From Pseudobacteriovorax antillogorgiicola (GTDB lineage: Bacteria > Bdellovibrionota_B > Oligoflexia > Oligoflexales > RGVZ01), in contig CAMBEK010000003.1 of NCBI GenBank assembly GCA_945865565.1, positions 248,001-312,000 of the forward strand: 64,000 nucleotides of DNA, in the 5' to 3' direction. The notes under the pieces are model-generated. The model ran no database searches and was not told the DNA's origin. It saw only the letters and a program-made list of their open reading frames with translations. The number at the start of each line of letters is the position of its first letter. The first letter of the stretch is position 1. Positions 18,988 through 29,740 of this stretch are shown one piece after another. The position numbers and the translations under genes were made by a program.

Positions 18988-20496
18988 ATGTCAAAAACCA
19001 GTAAAATCAGCCTGTTTTCCACCGATATTGTCCAGATTTTTCTGCTACTTACCCTCGGCACCCTCGTGCCATCCAGTTGCAAGAGGGCAGAAACATTCCC
19101 GGCCCTGGGCGAACAGGTGGCAAGTCCGGTGGACGTCGCCGTAGCTCCTGGCGAGGGTTATTTTTACGCATTGAATGCGGATTTTGACCGGACTTTTAAT
19201 GCCGGATCGCTCCTCGTGATCGATACCGAAGGCAACAAAAAATCGGCCATTTCAGTTCCACGCCTTGGTCGTAACATTGCCATCGCCGGAAACGACATGC
19301 TGGTTACATTTGATGCCGACGGAACCAGCCGCAGTGCCGAAGCCATCCTTTACGATGTTTCAACGCCAGAGGCTCCGCGGGAAGTTACCCGGCTCGACCT
19401 TGGTTGCAGTCCGCTGAACACCGTCATGCGCGATGGTTATAAACACTTCGCCATTGCCTGCGAAAATGCCGGGGATGCGGGGGGAATATTGATCGGGACT
19501 CTTGCAGACGACCGCACGCAGACCACCGTCAAACTGGTACGGACCTACGGCACCGCTCGCCGGGCAATGCATCTGGATCCCGTAAACGAACTTTTATTCG
19601 CATTTCCGACGGACTACGGGATGCAAACATGGATGGATCTAGATCTGGATGATTCATCAACCTTCGCAGCAGATGGAACCCAAACCAGCGTCCCCAATGA
19701 GATCCCGGACGATTATGAGAGGACGCGCCGCGCCCGCTCAAACTTGTCCCAGCGCAATATCTATCAGTTTATTGTTTATGATCTGGCGACAGAACGTGCT
19801 GCCACCCCAGAACCCTTTCCCTTCCGTGACGCAAAATCCACCGAGGTCGACAAGGAATTACGTTGGATCTATTTCAATCCAGAGGGATTCGGCGGAGTGC
19901 CCGATTCTGACGCAGGGCTCACCTCAACCACAGCGACCCGCCGCTACTACCGGACCAACTTCTTTGCCGCGGCGCATGATCCCGACGATGTGGCAGCCTT
20001 TTACCTGAGCCATCGGGGACACGTTGATTCAGTCACGGGCCTCGGTTCATCCCAGGCTAACGATGTCCTTCGCGTCGCTTTGACTGGTGACCCCAGGGTG
20101 AAAGCCGACGGGACGGTCCCCCTGACCAGCGACTACCTTCAATTCACTCGCGTCTACGGGCGTGGAGTCGAGGACAATGAGAAGGGTTTGCACTACCCGG
20201 GTGACATTGACGTCAAGCACGTTCAAGGCGAAAAAATGCTTTTCGTTAACCATTTCAGGGATTTAGTTAACTGGACCCGTTCCCAAGTCTATTTTGGGAT
20301 CGCAGCCAAGTCCCTCGGGCGGGACTATTGGAGCAGCGAAATCGGCAATTCTGAACCTGACGCGCAGAATTCCTATTATCAGGTTGCCGTGACCTCCACC
20401 GGTCGTGCCGCGGCATGCTCCTTCTATGGGAATAAGGTTATTTTATTTGATGTTGTGCCCGGTGCTGCTATAAAAGAGCACTTAATCGTCCAATAA
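18988..20496 (+). CDS. Predicted lipoprotein, beta-rich, unknown function
   Basis: A 502-residue exported protein with signal sequence and lipobox LVPSSC (Cys about residue 31). The mature part alternates strands and turns (VASPVDVAVAPGEGYFYALN, GSLLVIDTEGN, YQVAVTSTGRAAACSFYGNK), which suggests a beta-propeller, though no repeat family is clear. It probably sits in the outer or inner membrane. smc starts 18 bases after its stop, so the two may share a transcript, although their roles have no obvious link. Confidence 0.75.
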   Translation: MSKTSKISLFSTDIVQIFLLLTLGTLVPSSCKRAETFPALGEQVASPVDVAVAPGEGYFYALNADFDRTFNAGSLLVIDTEGNKKSAISVPRLGRNIAIAGNDMLVTFDADGTSRSAEAILYDVSTPEAPREVTRLDLGCSPLNTVMRDGYKHFAIACENAGDAGGILIGTLADDRTQTTVKLVRTYGTARRAMHLDPVNELLFAFPTDYGMQTWMDLDLDDSSTFAADGTQTSVPNEIPDDYERTRRARSNLSQRNIYQFIVYDLATERAATPEPFPFRDAKSTEVDKELRWIYFNPEGFGGVPDSDAGLTSTTATRRYYRTNFFAAAHDPDDVAAFYLSHRGHVDSVTGLGSSQANDVLRVALTGDPRVKADGTVPLTSDYLQFTRVYGRGVEDNEKGLHYPGDIDVKHVQGEKMLFVNHFRDLVNWTRSQVYFGIAAKSLGRDYWSSEIGNSEPDAQNSYYQVAVTSTGRAAACSFYGNKVILFDVVPGAAIKEHLIVQ

Positions 20497-20514: not shown

Positions 20515-23500
20515 ATGCACCTAAAACGAATCACCGTTCAGGGCTTTAAGTCCTTTGCTGATAAAATCAGCCTGACCTTTGACCGCGGTATCACCGGGGT
20601 TGTGGGGCCGAACGGCTCTGGCAAAAGTAACATCATCGATGCCGTCCGCTGGGTCATGGGCGAACAAAACGCAAAGAACTTGCGCGGCGAAAAGGCGACC
20701 GACATTATTTTTGCGGGTTCCGAGCGCCGCAAAACCATGTCCATGGCTGAAGTTTCAGTTATTTTTGACAACACGGAAGGCGACAGCATCTGTCCGCCGG
20801 AATACCGGCACGAGCCAGAGATAACCCTCACGCGCCGCCTTTATGCTGACGGCCAGCGCGAGTACCTGATCAACCGCAAACCTTGCCGCTTAAAAGACAT
20901 CGTTGGCTTCTTCACCATGACCGGTTTAGGTGGCCGCAGTTATTCCATGATCCAACAGGGTCAAGTCGACCGTATCCTCAATGCCAAACCCGAAGACGTG
21001 CGGGAAATCCTGGAAGAGGCCGCCGGCACCCTGCTCTACAAGCAGCGAAAACTCGAGGCCCAAAAACGCCTTGAGGGCACAGACCTTAACCTGTCTCGCG
21101 TGACGGATATCCTGACCGAGATCGAGCGCCAGAAGACGACCCTCGAAGAACAAGTCGAAAAAGCGCAAAAATGGCAGGAGATGAGCACCAGACTGCGCGA
21201 TGAAGAACTCCTGCTGCTCGCGCAAAATTTCACTCTGTTCAAGAACAAGTTGGACGAGGCCCAGGCTGCCCTTGCGGAGCAAACCACGAAAGAGGCCGAA
21301 TTCCTCGCCGCTGTCAGCCAGTACGAAGCGCGCTACGAAGAACTTCAACAGCAACTAGCCGAGGCTGACCCGGACCTTGCTGCCGTCGTAGAACAGATTT
21401 CATCGATCCGCGAAGAAATCGCCCGAGCCGAATCGGCGGTCGGAAACGCACAGACACGGATGGACACCGGTTCAAACCGCCTGCGTGATATTCAGCGCGA
21501 AATCGAAGAAGACGCCTCGAACTTGAAGGTGATTGAAGCCCAAGTTGACGGAGCCACTGCGGAACTTTCTGCGGCAGAAAAATCGGCGACGCTGCTGCGC
21601 AGCCAGCTGGAAGACTTCCAAAATGAAGTTGATTCCGTTGACGAAACCACACGGGTCTTCCGCAGCAAAATAGAAGAAGGCGAAGACGAGCAGCGGAATC
21701 TCACGCGCTTGATTGACAGCAACAAGGTCCGCTCCGAAGGCGCCCAACGTGAGATTTCACGCGTCGAGAAACTCCTCGACGGCGAGAGAACGCGGCGCCA
21801 AAGCCTGCAAACTGATGTTGCACAAGCGCTTGAAGCCTTTGAGGGGGCGCGGGGAAAAGCGGCTGGACAACAAGACGGCCTGGACGTTGAAATCCGGGAA
21901 AAACACTCCCGTGAAGCCGCCGTCGCGGCGCGTTATGGCCAAATCAAAGACGCAAACACGACGCGCGACTCGCTGCGCGAAAAATACCATGAATCAAGGG
22001 CACGACTGGCCTCACTGCAAGAGCTTGACGAACAGGGCGCAACCGATGCGGCATCATCCCTGCAAAAGCTTTACGAGACCGGGTCCGTTGACCGTAGCCA
22101 CGTCCCAGGGCTGTTTGCCGAACAAATCGCCTGGACTGCAAATGCGCAAGAGCTGCCAAAGCCGGCGACACAGGCGTTCGAGCGTTGGTCGGAAAGGGTT
22201 GTCATCATCGGTGTTGATGGCCTGAATCAGGTTGTTCGCGCGGCTTCCAAGGCAGAAGTAACTCCGCTGCCAGTGACCCTGCTTGGCAGGTCCATTGCCC
22301 TCAAATCTGACGGATCTTTTGGCGCGCGCGTAAAAACGTGGGCGGATGATTTTGATGCCGTTGCCATGGGCGAATTTCTGCGCATTGACTCAAAGCAGAG
22401 TCTTGAATCAGCAACCAGGTCCGGACTCGAAGCCCTTTTGTCGCGTCTCTATTTCGTTCCTGCCTTGGCAATGGACGATGGATCACTAAAAGATTTACCC
22501 GCAGGCGTGATTGCTTTCACGGCTCAGGGACTTTGCATTGCTGGCGAAGACGATTTTCTGGTCAGTGGCCGGGGAGGCACGAGCGTCCTTAGCCGCAAGG
22601 CAGAGCAGGAAAATCTTGGCAAGATAATGAAGCAAACCGAAGGCGACCTTGCACGGGCCCAATCGCATATCGATGAACTCGAAGTGCGCATGAATGAAGA
22701 CCGTGCCATCGTCATTGAAATCGACGGCCGCTTGCAGCAACAAAACGCGGCGGTACTTGCCATCATGGCGGAACTGCAATCAGCACAACAGGTTGCCACC
22801 CACAAGCAAGAACTGCTCGCTGCTCAAGAACAAACGATGGCCGACCTGGAGCGCCAGGATTCCCAGTTCCGCGATGAACTCACAAAACTTGAGGCATCGC
22901 GCAGCTCTCTTGAAGTAGAACTCCGCAATGCCGAAGCGGAGCTGGTGAGCATCCGCGAGGAGGCTGCAGGACTGGAAGAACGCCGTGAGGAAGTTTTCCG
23001 TCAAAATCAGAATCGCTCGGTTGATCTGGCAAAATCGGAATCCCGCGCTACAGCTCTCCGTGAGAGCTTTACCCATGCCCGCGCACAGCAAGAGCTGCTA
23101 CAGAACAAGCTCAGCCGTCGCTACGAAGAACAAAGTGCGATTCAAAATGACATTGAATCTGCCAAGAATCTGCTTGAGCATTCTCAGTCCCGCATTGAAG
23201 GTTTGATCGACCGCCGTGCGGAACTCGATGAAAAAGTCGCTGAAAAGCGCGAGGCCCAGGCCGGAATTCACGAAGAATTGCGCGTCATTGATTCGCGCCT
23301 CAAAGAATGTCGTGAACATCAGGCCAAAGTTCAAAAAAGCCTGTCGGACAAAAACGTTCAGATTGAACGCGCCACCATGGCCATCACCAGTGTGAATGGT
23401 CAGGCGCAAGAAAAATATCAGCTGGATATTGCGACCTACACATTCACCTACGATCCAGAATTTGAAGCCGACAAGGCTGCCCGCAGCGTTGGTACCTTGC

Positions 23501-24264
23501 GCGGACGGATCGAATCCCTTGGTCCGATCAACATGATGGCCCTGCGTGAGTTTGAAGACCTGACGACACGAGAGACCTTCATCCGCGCGCAACAAGACGA
23601 AATCAATGCCAGCATCGCCCTTCTTAACGAGGCGATTAACGAAATTGAAGTCTCGTCAAAGGACAAGTTTCTTGCTGTTTTCACTGTGATCAACCGCGAA
23701 TTCGGCCAACTCTTCCCGATCCTCTTCCCGAACGGCGAAGGCCATCTGGAACTGACCAATCCGGAAGATCCACTGAACGGTGGAGTCGAGATCATGGTTC
23801 GCTTGCCCGGCAAAAAGCCGCAAAACATGAACCTGTTCTCCGGCGGAGAGAAAGCCCTTACGGCGATTTCCTTGATCTTTGCTTTGCTAAAAACGAAGCC
23901 AACTCCATTCTGTTTCCTTGACGAAGTGGACGCACCACTCGATGAGGCTAACGTTGGCCGTTACAACCGCGTTTTAGATGCGCTTTCAGATCAGTTCCAG
24001 TTCATCATCATTACCCACAACCGCCGCACGATGGAGGTGCTCGACACCCTCTACGGCGTTACGATGCAGGAACCTGGTGTTTCAAGCATCGTCGGGGTGG
24101 ATATGAAAAAAGATCTGCCAAACCACCTGAGGAAAGCCTTCAAGGACGAGCCTAAAAAGACTACCTCTGCTGCAGCCATTGATGACGGCTTCGACCCTGA
24201 AGGTCCGGTTCCCGTTCTCCCTGTTGGGGACGGCCGGACTCTCGAAGGCGCCAGCTCACGATAG
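20515..24264 (+). CDS. smc: Chromosome segregation ATPase SMC
   Basis: Condensin-like ATPase that organises and helps segregate the chromosome, normally with ScpAB (not in this window). The 1249-residue protein has N-terminal Walker A GPNGSGKSN near residue 35, a Q-loop with GLGGRSYSMIQQGQ, two long coiled coils (about 170-510 and 690-1010), a hinge at about 515-665, and the C-terminal signature LFSGGEKAL (about 1107-1115), Walker B FLDEVDA and D-loop. An extra acidic, Pro-rich tail ends the protein. The hinge lacks the glycine motifs I expect (see findings). Confidence 0.96.
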   Translation: MHLKRITVQGFKSFADKISLTFDRGITGVVGPNGSGKSNIIDAVRWVMGEQNAKNLRGEKATDIIFAGSERRKTMSMAEVSVIFDNTEGDSICPPEYRHEPEITLTRRLYADGQREYLINRKPCRLKDIVGFFTMTGLGGRSYSMIQQGQVDRILNAKPEDVREILEEAAGTLLYKQRKLEAQKRLEGTDLNLSRVTDILTEIERQKTTLEEQVEKAQKWQEMSTRLRDEELLLLAQNFTLFKNKLDEAQAALAEQTTKEAEFLAAVSQYEARYEELQQQLAEADPDLAAVVEQISSIREEIARAESAVGNAQTRMDTGSNRLRDIQREIEEDASNLKVIEAQVDGATAELSAAEKSATLLRSQLEDFQNEVDSVDETTRVFRSKIEEGEDEQRNLTRLIDSNKVRSEGAQREISRVEKLLDGERTRRQSLQTDVAQALEAFEGARGKAAGQQDGLDVEIREKHSREAAVAARYGQIKDANTTRDSLREKYHESRARLASLQELDEQGATDAASSLQKLYETGSVDRSHVPGLFAEQIAWTANAQELPKPATQAFERWSERVVIIGVDGLNQVVRAASKAEVTPLPVTLLGRSIALKSDGSFGARVKTWADDFDAVAMGEFLRIDSKQSLESATRSGLEALLSRLYFVPALAMDDGSLKDLPAGVIAFTAQGLCIAGEDDFLVSGRGGTSVLSRKAEQENLGKIMKQTEGDLARAQSHIDELEVRMNEDRAIVIEIDGRLQQQNAAVLAIMAELQSAQQVATHKQELLAAQEQTMADLERQDSQFRDELTKLEASRSSLEVELRNAEAELVSIREEAAGLEERREEVFRQNQNRSVDLAKSESRATALRESFTHARAQQELLQNKLSRRYEEQSAIQNDIESAKNLLEHSQSRIEGLIDRRAELDEKVAEKREAQAGIHEELRVIDSRLKECREHQAKVQKSLSDKNVQIERATMAITSVNGQAQEKYQLDIATYTFTYDPEFEADKAARSVGTLRGRIESLGPINMMALREFEDLTTRETFIRAQQDEINASIALLNEAINEIEVSSKDKFLAVFTVINREFGQLFPILFPNGEGHLELTNPEDPLNGGVEIMVRLPGKKPQNMNLFSGGEKALTAISLIFALLKTKPTPFCFLDEVDAPLDEANVGRYNRVLDALSDQFQFIIITHNRRTMEVLDTLYGVTMQEPGVSSIVGVDMKKDLPNHLRKAFKDEPKKTTSAAAIDDGFDPEGPVPVLPVGDGRTLEGASSR

Positions 24265-24322: not shown

Positions 24323-26917
24323 CTACGAACCAGCAATCGTAATTATATCGCCGGCTTGATATTGGCGACCAAGGTAGACGGCCGACTGTTCCAAAGTAAG
24401 TTCAAGCCTTGAAACCCTGGCCCCCCAAACCTCGAGTCCGTTTTTCACTACGAAGACTTCCCCAGAAGATAAGACGGCGTAATTATCAAGATCACTTGTC
24501 GTCAGCACAGTCACTGCAATTTCACCAACGCGGGTTGTCTTGACCCAGGCAAAACTGCCCATTTTTATGCTAAATGGCTGGCCACCCGGTAAAACCAGCC
24601 CGACAACGGGTTCGTCTAACCAGATACCGGCGCTGAGCGTGCCCTCACTATTGACGTCCATAAAATTAATCTCAGATGAAATCCTCCGCATCCCAAGTGG
24701 CATTCCGAGGTCGATTTTTCCTTCAAACACACAACTTTCAGGATTGCGATCTCTATCAAAGACAATGACCTGTCCCGTACTGCAAGTCCGTCCCCTTAAG
24801 GAGACGTCTGCCCCAAGTGGGGAACTCTTTAGTGCGCCATTTTCATGCCACTCTGTTTTTTTGCCGAATTGAAAACGAAACGTCCCGAAAGAAATGTCAT
24901 ATTGGGGACTCCCAGTCTTGATCATTCCGTTTGGCCAAAACTCCAGCGCAGACCCTCCGCCTGCTAATCCGCTGTATCGGTTTCCCCGGTAGCTAACGAC
25001 CTGTGATTTGTCGAAGGGTAAAATCCGAAGCTGGCATGATGGAAAATAGAAGAGCAAATTCTCGCGATCCCCTTCCAGCTTCAAGCTACCCATCGCAAGG
25101 CATTCATTGCGGGCATACTCGATGAATTCTTCCACCGTTTTGAATTCCGAGTAACGCAGTGCAACGAGGGACGACAGCGCTTTGAGCTTTAGGTCATCCG
25201 ATGTTCTGGAGTCCCCCAAAAACGACTGCAAGCGCCTTCGCATTTCGTCGCCGCCGCTGCCAAAGGCGGCGCCTTTTGATGTGGCGATCGTTGCGCCTGG
25301 GCTAAACTCATTGTTCTCTTCCCCGGAAACCATGTACGAGCCCGAACCTCCGTCGGCTGTCATTGCAGCGTGAATCGCCTTGACCCAACCGAGCCATGAA
25401 AGCTCATCTTTGTCCGCCTGAGTCCAAGCGGATTCCGGCGCATCAGAAAGAACTGCAGCACGAATCAAGCTTTCAAGGATCACATCCTTCTGTCGCCAGC
25501 CACTTACGTAATCAAATGATGAAATGAGGTCGATATTCATGGCCTGATTGTCAAAGTCGGCTAGAGCTTTTGCCGCTAGAACTTCCGCCATCCCATACAC
25601 ATAGGTCTGACAGCCGTCTAACGCTATGATTTGGTACTTGCCTTTGGGATAGGACGACGGTTCCTTCAACGCACCTTCGATATTGGCCCCAGCGCCAGCG
25701 TGGCCACCAAAATAAACGACATCGGCCGAACCGATGGCACTGCGGAATGCCTCCCTAGCCCTATCATTATGATGTTCAGAGGCAATCGTCAGCCGGATCG
25801 TCACCGACCTGCCGCCGTGGGTTTGAATAGATTTCGTGAAGACGACAAGGCCAGACAAGTCCGGCTGCCCTGAAATCGTAAAACCCAATGCTTTCATTCT
25901 CGGAAGGATCTCCTTATAGAACTCAGCCTCCACGGAACTCTTTTCGTAGATTCCAAAAAAATAAAAAATATCCAACGGGCCTTCACCAGCAAAAAGCCGG
26001 TGATATTCAGGGAATTTTCCCGAATCCATTTTCTTTGACTCAGCTTTTTCCACCACAAGATCCACGACACCCGGCGAGGAACAGCCCTGATTGCGTGCAT
26101 CAAAATAGTAAAATAGATAAAATGGATTAAGGACCGAACCATCTCCGAACGTATAACATTTGACCGTTTCCGTGCGGCCTTGGGTATTGAATAGCCAACG
26201 CTGACTCAAGGCTCCCATATCACCCATCACCCCGTCGTAGGCTGCGGGATCCAGCGACGCCAGATTAAATCCAAATGTGTCCCACCCACGTTGCAGGTAT
26301 TCAGAAAATTCATTATGAAAAAAACGTACCGGGTCCAATGGAACCTGCACTTTCTCACCGGTTTCGAGCATCTGTTGATGGGCTATTTGTGAAGGATTCA
26401 CATGTGCATTCACCTGGCCAACTGCACGGTATATTGCGCGGAAACTGATCTTCACCGTGTCTGGCCTTGGCCTCTCTACGACCAGACCTTCATCAAGAAC
26501 CTGATCAAGGGTCAGTGCGATCCCACGCCCCGCAAGAACACGCTTTGAATATTTAGCTTGCGCCGCAATCCAATAACGCAGCGCGGTTACATCCAGTTTT
26601 CCATTGCCATCGATAACGGGATGCCCAGCCTTTGGATCGTCGGCAAACTGCTGGTTCAGTGCCTGATAGGAATTATAAGAAGCTGGCTTTGTTGCCGTTG
26701 CCGGTGCCTCAACATGCCACCCAACAAGGTTCATCAAATGATTGGTCACATAGACTTCGCGGTCGGTCGGCAATTCAATCGTGCCGCGCACGGTTAGTAT
26801 GCTTTCCTGCAAACGATCGGACGTTGTTCGCAGCGATGACGCCTTAAACCTTGTCTTACAGGAGGAAAAACAAATCAAAACAGCGACAGTGAAAAAAACA
26901 CGAGATGAAGGACGCAT
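24323..26917 (-). CDS. Large lipoprotein with caspase-like His/Cys pair
   Basis: An 864-residue exported lipoprotein, with signal MRPSSRVFFTVAVLICFSSC and lipid Cys20. Residues about 395-475 look like a clan CD (caspase/gingipain-type) core: strand VVYFGGHAGAG with His406, then strand QIIALDGCQTYVYG with Cys436, followed by helix and strand. Residues about 660-745 contain MORN-like EFWPNGMIKTGSP and WHENGALKSSPLG units. ATG 26917 is chosen over an upstream start for the GGGAG site and signal sequence. It follows the Omp85 gene by 62 bases. A processing or degradation role is inference only. Confidence 0.72.
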   Translation of the reverse strand: MRPSSRVFFTVAVLICFSSCKTRFKASSLRTTSDRLQESILTVRGTIELPTDREVYVTNHLMNLVGWHVEAPATATKPASYNSYQALNQQFADDPKAGHPVIDGNGKLDVTALRYWIAAQAKYSKRVLAGRGIALTLDQVLDEGLVVERPRPDTVKISFRAIYRAVGQVNAHVNPSQIAHQQMLETGEKVQVPLDPVRFFHNEFSEYLQRGWDTFGFNLASLDPAAYDGVMGDMGALSQRWLFNTQGRTETVKCYTFGDGSVLNPFYLFYYFDARNQGCSSPGVVDLVVEKAESKKMDSGKFPEYHRLFAGEGPLDIFYFFGIYEKSSVEAEFYKEILPRMKALGFTISGQPDLSGLVVFTKSIQTHGGRSVTIRLTIASEHHNDRAREAFRSAIGSADVVYFGGHAGAGANIEGALKEPSSYPKGKYQIIALDGCQTYVYGMAEVLAAKALADFDNQAMNIDLISSFDYVSGWRQKDVILESLIRAAVLSDAPESAWTQADKDELSWLGWVKAIHAAMTADGGSGSYMVSGEENNEFSPGATIATSKGAAFGSGGDEMRRRLQSFLGDSRTSDDLKLKALSSLVALRYSEFKTVEEFIEYARNECLAMGSLKLEGDRENLLFYFPSCQLRILPFDKSQVVSYRGNRYSGLAGGGSALEFWPNGMIKTGSPQYDISFGTFRFQFGKKTEWHENGALKSSPLGADVSLRGRTCSTGQVIVFDRDRNPESCVFEGKIDLGMPLGMRRISSEINFMDVNSEGTLSAGIWLDEPVVGLVLPGGQPFSIKMGSFAWVKTTRVGEIAVTVLTTSDLDNYAVLSSGEVFVVKNGLEVWGARVSRLELTLEQSAVYLGRQYQAGDIITIAGS

Positions 26918-26979: not shown

Positions 26980-28311
26980 CTACAAGGGTTTATAAGGTTG
27001 AAAAAACTGGTTCAGACCTAGGGATATTCCCGAGGTTGATATGTCATTGCTTCTCCCCAAAGCATAATCCAGTCGAAAAACGAGGCGGTGAACCTTCGGG
27101 ATGGAAAGGCGTACCCCGGCACCAGCAGATCGAAACAAATCCTCACTGGCGTCTTTGAAGTCCTTGCCCGCAACCCCTGCATCAACAAAAGCAACGGTAG
27201 CCACCTTTAACCACTTTGAGGTCCACGCCTCACGGCGAACCTCAAGATTCGAATAGGCAGCAAAGGCCCCGTAGCGAATGCCGTCTGGAAAGCCTCGAAC
27301 GGAGTCAAACCCGCCAAGATGGAATGCATTTGAAATCGTCGGACTACCTGCTGCCTGCAGGTAACCGTGGAGGGCGATGTTGACGTCGGGACTTGGGCGA
27401 TGAAATGAGAAGACTTCCACTTCAGAATAATTTGAAAGACCCGGAGTCACCACACCTTCGCTCTTTGACAGCCCGCTCTTGAACATCAGACGGCGTCCCT
27501 CAAGCTGCTGGTCCTCTACCGACATGTTGTCAAAGACAAAACTGGCCAAAACTCGATGCTCCCAGGCATTTCGCTGTTCAGGCAGGTTTAGATTAGCTGC
27601 GGAGTTTTTCTCGACCACAGGCTTTCGGTCACGACGCGAAAGTAGTTCTACTCCTGCCTGAAGAATCTCGGGGGCAAGAGGGTCAGCCTCTGGAAAAAGT
27701 GGAACCAAGTGATAGAGGCGGACGTATGCACTGTCGAAACCAAGTTTGCCCGTCATCTCTCCGGCCGAGTCATAGTAATTGCGCCGACGAAAATCACGCC
27801 AGATCTCGATTCCACTGGACCCTTTGCCCTTTGCTGAACGAGGGAGTTTTGCCCAGAGGGTAAAACCCGGAGGGGCGGAACCGTATTTTTTTGTTTCGAC
27901 GCCGAGAGTCAGGAGCCGCCCGTACGCGTGCATGTCATAAACGCCGGCAACGAGGAGGGGAGTCCCGCCGCCGTATGCACCGCGGATGACGGGAATGGTG
28001 GTCCATTTTTCGTCGAGATCGACAATCAGCTCTGAAGTTGAATCGTCGACGCGGACTTGTACATCAACAAAAACATCTGTCGTGATCAACTTATGGCGAA
28101 TGCGTTGAATATCAATATCGGAAAGATAAGCAGGGAATTCGAACCCGATATAATCCTTCAACCACTTGATGTCAGTGCGCACCGCGCCATTAACTCGAAG
28201 TCCACTGACCTGATGTTGATTGACATTGACTGCGAAGGCCAACGTTTCAGATAAAAAAAATCCCGCTAGTACCAACAAATAGGCTGAAATTTGGCGCCGC
28301 AGGATTTTCAT
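26980..28311 (-). CDS. Omp85-family outer-membrane protein (POTRA plus barrel)
   Basis: A 443-residue BamA/TamA-superfamily protein: signal peptide (1-27, cut after AFA), one POTRA-like region (about 33-100, with IQRIRHKLITTDVFVDVQV) and a C-terminal barrel whose L6 loop carries GGFDSVRGFPDG, the Omp85 RGF motif. It is much shorter than BamA (one POTRA, not five), so a specialised surface-protein or lipid export role is likelier than general assembly. The ATG lies two bases past the hldD stop; a TTG overlaps it. The caspase-like lipoprotein follows. Confidence 0.85.
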   Translation of the reverse strand: MKILRRQISAYLLVLAGFFLSETLAFAVNVNQHQVSGLRVNGAVRTDIKWLKDYIGFEFPAYLSDIDIQRIRHKLITTDVFVDVQVRVDDSTSELIVDLDEKWTTIPVIRGAYGGGTPLLVAGVYDMHAYGRLLTLGVETKKYGSAPPGFTLWAKLPRSAKGKGSSGIEIWRDFRRRNYYDSAGEMTGKLGFDSAYVRLYHLVPLFPEADPLAPEILQAGVELLSRRDRKPVVEKNSAANLNLPEQRNAWEHRVLASFVFDNMSVEDQQLEGRRLMFKSGLSKSEGVVTPGLSNYSEVEVFSFHRPSPDVNIALHGYLQAAGSPTISNAFHLGGFDSVRGFPDGIRYGAFAAYSNLEVRREAWTSKWLKVATVAFVDAGVAGKDFKDASEDLFRSAGAGVRLSIPKVHRLVFRLDYALGRSNDISTSGISLGLNQFFQPYKPL

Positions 28312-28313
28312 AA

Positions 28314-29300
28314 TCAAAGAAAAGGATCTTGGCTGCTGAGGTAACGGGTTACGTATTCCTTCACACCATCTTCAAGAGGCGTAAAGGCTTTCGTGTAACC
28401 ACCCTGTTCGCGCAACAGGGAAAGATTGGCTTCGGTGAAATACTGGTATTGATTTTTGAGGTCGTCGGGCATTTCAATCCAGTCAAACTTGGCCTCGCGC
28501 TTTCCCATTGAAGAGAAAACTGCTCGACCGAGATCCGCAAACGAGCGGGCTTCTCCACTCCCTACATTGTAGATACCCGATTTGGCATTTTGGGGCGCAC
28601 GCATGAAGTGCAGGATCACATCGACCACGTCCTTGATCCAAACGAAATCGCGGCGCTGGTCGCCGTGGGCGATACCTTCCTTATAGGACTTGAACAGTTT
28701 CAGGTTCCCCCGGTCCCGCACCTGAGGAAAGGCATGAAACACGACGCTGGCCTGGCCCCCCTTGTGGTACTCTTGCGGGCCGTAGACGTTAAAAAATTTG
28801 AGGCCCGCCCAAAATGGCGGTTTCTCCCGCTGATTCAAGACCCACTGATCAAAAACATGCTTGCTGTAGCCATATGGATTGATCGGTCGGAGCTTGTGGA
28901 TAAGTTGGGGATCGTCACTATAGCCATGTTCCCCCATGCCATAGGTGGCCGCAGAGGAGGCATAAATGAAGGGAATTTTCTCGTGGGCCGCAAACTGAAA
29001 TAACTCAGCGGAATAGTTGAAGTTATTTTTAATGAGGTAGTCCACATCCTTCTCAGTCGTGGCAGAACAGGCCCCCATGTGGATGATCGCATCGATGGCG
29101 GCGGGGCGGGATTTCGTACTTAACCAGTCAAGCAACTGGTCCTTATGCAGGGCGTAGCCAATCCGGCGCTTGGCCAGGTTGCGCCATTTGTTGCCGGTAC
29201 CAAACTCATCCGCCACCAGGATGTCGTGCAGTCCCTCCGCGTTGAGTTTCCACAAAAAGGCACTGCCAATAAATCCTGCACCACCAGTAACGACGATCAT
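28314..29300 (-). CDS. hldD: ADP-L-glycero-D-manno-heptose-6-epimerase
   Basis: NAD(P)-dependent epimerase making ADP-L-glycero-D-manno-heptose, the heptose of LPS inner core. It has the SDR Rossmann motif TGGAGFIGS (residues 5-13), SSAATYGMGE, the active-site NPYGYSKHVFDQW (YxxxK) and GDQRRDFVWIKDV, over 328 residues. A GGGAGGAACTCT site precedes the ATG. It is the first gene of the minus-strand envelope operon with Omp85 and the large lipoprotein. Confidence 0.94.
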   Translation of the reverse strand: MIVVTGGAGFIGSAFLWKLNAEGLHDILVADEFGTGNKWRNLAKRRIGYALHKDQLLDWLSTKSRPAAIDAIIHMGACSATTEKDVDYLIKNNFNYSAELFQFAAHEKIPFIYASSAATYGMGEHGYSDDPQLIHKLRPINPYGYSKHVFDQWVLNQREKPPFWAGLKFFNVYGPQEYHKGGQASVVFHAFPQVRDRGNLKLFKSYKEGIAHGDQRRDFVWIKDVVDVILHFMRAPQNAKSGIYNVGSGEARSFADLGRAVFSSMGKREAKFDWIEMPDDLKNQYQYFTEANLSLLREQGGYTKAFTPLEDGVKEYVTRYLSSQDPFL

Positions 29301-29365: not shown

Positions 29366-29740
29366 ATGTTTGGACTTGGAATATCTGAAATAATTGTGAT
29401 CGTTGTTGCGGCCCTGATCTTTGTCGGGCCAAAGCAATTACCGGAGTTTATCAAATCGGCGGGAAAACTTTTTGTTCAAATCCGCCGCGCTGCCAATGAA
29501 GTCAAGTCTACCGTTGATGGCGTGATCCGCGAAGCGGAAGAAGAAGTCCGCAAAGAAGCCAAGTCCATCTCCGATTCGATAGACCAAAAAGCAATTTCAA
29601 AGAACCTCTCTGAGATCCCAGCCGCTTTGGACATACCAGGAGCCTTGGACGTTTCCATGAAGGGCGTTCGCGCCAACTTCGCCACCGGCGGGCTTGAGCT
29701 CCCTGATGCCCTTGAGCAAACTGGGAATAAACCCAAGTGA
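29366..29740 (+). CDS. tatB: Sec-independent translocase subunit TatB
   Basis: Component of the twin-arginine translocase, exporting folded proteins. It begins MFGLGISEIIVIVVAALIFV, with the Glu after GLG, then GPKQLPEF, an amphipathic helix and an acidic/charged tail; 124 residues. The length and the MFGLG-type N-terminus favour TatB over TatA. tatC and tatA are not nearby. Its stop overlaps the lysA GTG. Confidence 0.9.
   Translation: MFGLGISEIIVIVVAALIFVGPKQLPEFIKSAGKLFVQIRRAANEVKSTVDGVIREAEEEVRKEAKSISDSIDQKAISKNLSEIPAALDIPGALDVSMKGVRANFATGGLELPDALEQTGNKPK

Follow-up and report, generated by a model that had tools for sequence, protein, structure and literature searches.

The protein of 864 amino acids encoded at 24323-26917 in the 64,000-nucleotide stretch of DNA analysed here (the window) is likely to be a lipid-anchored envelope protein with a divergent cysteine peptidase domain of clan CD, caspase- or gingipain-like, at residues 302-540. 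Searches against Pfam, NCBIfam and PADLOC gave no match for the protein. It is one of a family of mostly predicted lipoproteins in which one histidine and one cysteine, candidates for a catalytic dyad, are present in every member that covers them, and the profile of this family aligns with two known clan CD families with both residues in register. On these grounds the protein is probably an envelope protease.

The window is part of a 2.5-Mb draft genome. The reading frame lies on the minus strand, with its ATG at 26917 and its stop at 24323. The nearest named relative is an Oligoflexales MAG, in which the gene order is unchanged. The parts of the protein are as follows.

24323..26917, minus strand: coding sequence of the putative caspase-like lipoprotein, 864 aa, with an 86% identical orthologue in L003/G001
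26858..26917, minus strand: predicted signal peptide with the lipobox-like FSSC20
26015..26857, minus strand: N-terminal domain, residues 21-301, without known family (12-member alignment; no Pfam match)
25298..26014, minus strand: predicted caspase/gingipain-like core, residues 302-540 (family alignment; hhalign to C25 and C14)
25700..25702, minus strand: His406, candidate catalytic histidine, in (Y/F)xGH(S/A)GxG
25610..25612, minus strand: Cys436, candidate nucleophile, in (F/L/I)(N/D)(G/S)Cx(T/S)(Y/F)
25529..25531, minus strand: Asp463, in the strand after the Cys helix, invariant in the first core alignment
25310..25324, minus strand: GE(E/D)xN motif (GEENN, residues 532-536), directly beyond which most relatives end
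24326..25297, minus strand: C-terminal extension, residues 541-864, without counterpart in most relatives and partly common to L005

A first-pass annotation had reported this reading frame and its coordinates, with His406 in GGHAGAG and Cys436 in ALDGCQT, and all of these were correct when checked against the sequence. Its description of the two residues as 30 apart and each following a hydrophobic strand was also confirmed, and the pair is kept wherever a family segment covers both sites (22 of 22). In these segments Gly405 directly precedes the histidine without exception, Gly410 is nearly always kept, and aromatic or hydrophobic residues precede both the His and the Cys, which lie 29-42 residues apart. 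Asp463 and the GE(E/D)xN motif are likewise kept in all of these segments. The first core alignment comprises 11 sequences and 237 positions of the window protein, and core identity of the homologues to the window protein is about 20% except for one close relative at 92%. Only 10 of the 237 residues are invariant in it, His406 and Cys436 included. With ten invariant positions placed randomly, the chance that a previously named pair of residues would fall entirely among them is about 0.002, a rough figure since the homologue search favours conserved stretches.

For comparison with clan CD, C25, C14, C11 and CHAT domains were gathered from the same phylum with Pfam models; the unrelated controls were domains of response regulators and alpha/beta hydrolases. 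In hhalign, the family profile matched C25 with a score of 30.2 (E 0.0016) and C14 with a score of 29.3 (E 0.0013), and each alignment pairs the His and Cys of the family with the catalytic His and Cys, respectively. Column-shuffled decoys, 143 of which were usable, scored no higher than 17.6 and 19.6, reversed alignments no higher than 15.2, and the two control alpha/beta families 12.5 and 11.9. On the same scale, the accepted clan relatives C25 and C14 score 38-40 against each other, and CHAT and C11 score 22-23 against C25. The HHalign probability to C25 and C14 was just 16-19%, across 71-104 columns. When a C25 HMM from the same phylum was used, family members occupied ranks 1-15, ahead of all other window ORFs. 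The best family member matched the Pfam model Peptidase_C25 (PF01364) with E 0.0022 in the core, short of the curated cut-off, and the window protein itself had no match to PF01364. PF00656 matched neither the window protein nor any member of the first core alignment. The clan CD layout that had been read from the letters of the window protein is thus supported by the conservation of the His and Cys and by the in-register alignment with C25 and C14.

The family resembles the gingipains (C25) in the register of the dyad, the invariant GH, the predicted extracytoplasmic setting and the His-Cys spacing, which is 29-35 in C25 and mostly within that range in the family. It differs from them in having Ser or Ala after the His and Tyr or Phe three residues after the Cys, where most C14 and C25 domains have Gly after the His and both families have Gly three after the Cys, and also in the predicted lipid anchor, the N-terminal domain and the GE(E/D)xN motif. 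With the caspases, metacaspases and orthocaspases (C14, PF00656) it shares the GH after a hydrophobic strand, an hDxCxS-like Cys motif and the register of the dyad; C14 has a longer spacing of 37-63 and Gly three after the Cys, and a match at the sequence level is absent. The family spacing overlaps C25 more than C14. CHAT (PF12770) and C11 clostripain (PF03415) are clan CD families of the same phylum, and the family profile matched them at background level only (E 0.15 and 0.51, respectively). A glycine adjacent to the catalytic His is a feature of clan CD (PMC4357240). Because of the profile match, the overlap in spacing and the altered neighbours of the dyad, the resemblance to C25 and C14 is judged to be real but remote.

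The altered neighbours, H-(S/A) for H-G and C-x-(T/S)-(Y/F) for C-x-x-G, could also mean that the protein has the clan CD fold and the dyad but is not proteolytic, and instead binds a ligand or peptide or acts as an acyl- or thioester-forming envelope enzyme. Pseudo-orthocaspases in which the HC dyad has been lost are known from the literature (PMC6426788). However, Ser or Ala follows the His in 6 of 19 C25 and 4 of 19 C14 domains of the same phylum as well, and the presence of both His and Cys in every family segment is typical of catalysis. We therefore regard a non-proteolytic role as unlikely.

The predicted structures bear on a further alternative, that the core is another Rossmann-like alpha/beta domain in which a conserved GH and Cys (structural, metal-binding or of a different hydrolase) arose by convergence, unrelated to clan CD. 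The caspase/haemoglobinase fold of clan CD has a six-stranded sheet, with the dyad where strands 3 and 4 end. AlphaFold was given an input of two rows only, the window protein and L003, and both models had pLDDT of 58.7-58.9 and pTM of 0.64, with low confidence around the His and Cys. In these low-confidence models the order of elements is strand-helix-strand-hairpin-helix-strand-His-helix-strand-Cys-helix-strand-helix, which is compatible with the clan CD order of strand-His-helix-strand-Cys-helix-strand (PMC4357240). Foldseek and VIA-align searches with these models, whose pLDDT of about 59 is too low for the matches to be read as fold assignments, listed GTPases, Mur ligases and peptidyl-tRNA hydrolases at a Z of at most 6.1, and there are no clan CD chains among the listed fold matches of these low-confidence two-sequence models. 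A PDB sequence search with the single sequence and with the family profile gave chance-level matches only and no clan CD chain. These other alpha/beta folds, the lack of a clan CD sequence match in PDB and the modest HHalign probability speak for convergence. Against it, the dyad aligns with the catalytic residues of two different clan CD families at scores well beyond those of the decoys and the alpha/beta controls, and convergence seems improbable. We infer a clan CD fold and proteolytic activity for the core.

The lipid anchor proposed in the first-pass annotation is supported by a signal peptide and a lipobox-like Cys in nearly all members. The lipobox takes forms such as LPSC, LSGC and LTTC in nearly all relatives and is FSSC20 in the window protein, in which the Phe at -3 is atypical. 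By inspection, 11 of 12 full-length relatives have a Cys where the signal peptide ends. The position-20 Cys is aligned in all 12, and that of L009 is a misalignment because this family member has an ordinary signal peptide. Lipidation and a periplasmic location are predicted for the window protein from these features. Cys254 and Cys279 are invariant in the 12 full-length members and flank an aromatic (F/W)YY-P motif; this suggests that they are a candidate periplasmic disulfide in an exported domain.

The following mechanism may be proposed. His406 would follow a hydrophobic strand and Cys436 the strand after it; the histidine would activate the cysteine, and the two would most likely cleave peptide bonds. 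The N-terminal domain, which a C254-C279 disulfide probably holds together, may serve as a pro- or support domain. The window member has in addition the C-terminal extension, which is missing in most relatives. More broadly, we lean towards the view that these proteins are an undescribed, lipid-anchored clan CD family with which Oligoflexales-type bacteria process proteins of the envelope or outside the cell. Its proposed marks are Y-x-G-H-(S/A)-G-x-G, (N/D)-G-C-x-(T/S)-(Y/F), the periplasmic cysteine pair and the C-terminal GE(E/D)xN. A literature search found reviews on orthocaspases and clan CD and nothing on such lipoproteins. If confirmed, the family would extend the caspase/gingipain clan by a lipid-anchored branch from a phylum that has been little studied, fill a gap for annotation in Pfam and NCBIfam, and provide a tractable system for studying the roles of caspase-like enzymes in the bacterial envelope. 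The novelty would lie in a new family of an established fold class and not in a new type of system.

Relatives were found in 10 of 56 genomes by a whole-genome search with the full protein as query and in 17 of 58 genomes of the phylum by a search with the core profile, and nearly all of them are predicted lipoproteins. Most members have 430-470 residues and end directly after GE(E/D)xN. The extension beyond this motif is at least 300 residues long in the window protein and in L005, which is truncated at its 5' end, and about 250 in L013. Two scans of viral contigs gave no relatives, and a plasmid search with the core of a relative gave no match. A role as an anti-phage defence protein was considered and rejected, as PADLOC gives no match. 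The same genome as the window encodes a paralogue of 459 residues (L002, 1276-2652, minus strand) that ends with GEEDN and lies beside a kinase-like gene. At 5161-8571 of L137 (G013:C500), two divergent family members of 324 and 756 aa are encoded head to head, which suggests a local duplication. Genome G013 carries an unusual load of clan CD proteins, with 12 matches of C25 gingipain type, 7 of C14 caspase type and three family members.

The genes around the window copy are as follows.

26980..28317, minus strand: Omp85/TamA-like barrel gene, upstream, conserved in the order
28314..29300, minus strand: NAD-dependent sugar epimerase gene (HldD type from sequence), first of the gene group
20515..24264, plus strand: smc gene, convergent neighbour

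The Omp85/TamA-like protein, with 445 aa, has no room for several POTRA domains and is without a clear NCBIfam equivalog. Its gene lies beside the epimerase gene in the loci examined and is an order-wide conserved envelope gene. In G003 and G002, of the same genus, and in G032, of another family in the same order, the Omp85 gene and smc have no gene between them; the gaps, measured between the ends of the protein matches, are 33, 51 and 18 bases, respectively. The site of the window copy is thus empty in two of the three other genomes of the genus in the analysis. Beyond chance pairs, no gene family recurs next to the gene in 16 other family loci, none of which has an Omp85 neighbour. The Omp85-smc loci without the caspase-like gene, together with the unrelated neighbours elsewhere, mark it as a solitary gene that arrived or was lost in particular lineages.

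The barrel had been put forward as a functional partner. The caspase-like gene starts 62 bases after the end of the Omp85 gene and shares its strand, and the order is kept in the 86% identical relative, as might be expected if the protein were a protease or sorting enzyme dedicated to the barrel. But Omp85 relatives were found in 43 of the 56 genomes, the three loci above lack the caspase-like gene and the other members have unrelated neighbours, so that a general partnership is rejected and a dedicated one is very improbable; nothing in the analysis pointed to a sorting enzyme. The Omp85 neighbour says nothing about the substrate of the caspase-like protein.

Residues 541-864 have no Pfam match. 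The tail had been described as MORN-like; MORN_2 is absent from the window tail and from that of the close orthologue, and the sole MORN_2 (PF07661) match, in the L005 tail with E 0.029, is below the cut-off. Two F/W-x-x-N-G-x-(I/L)-K stretches in the window tail are at most suggestive of MORN, and a MORN tail was rejected since Pfam finds nothing.

Two other reading frames of the window were noted. Upstream of smc, 18988-20496 encodes a putative lipoprotein of 502 residues without a Pfam match, which adjoins smc in G002, G003 and G032 as well. At 29366-29737, divergent from the epimerase gene, there is a small ORF with a TatA/TatB-like start (MFGLGISEIIVIVVAALIFVGPKQLPEF).
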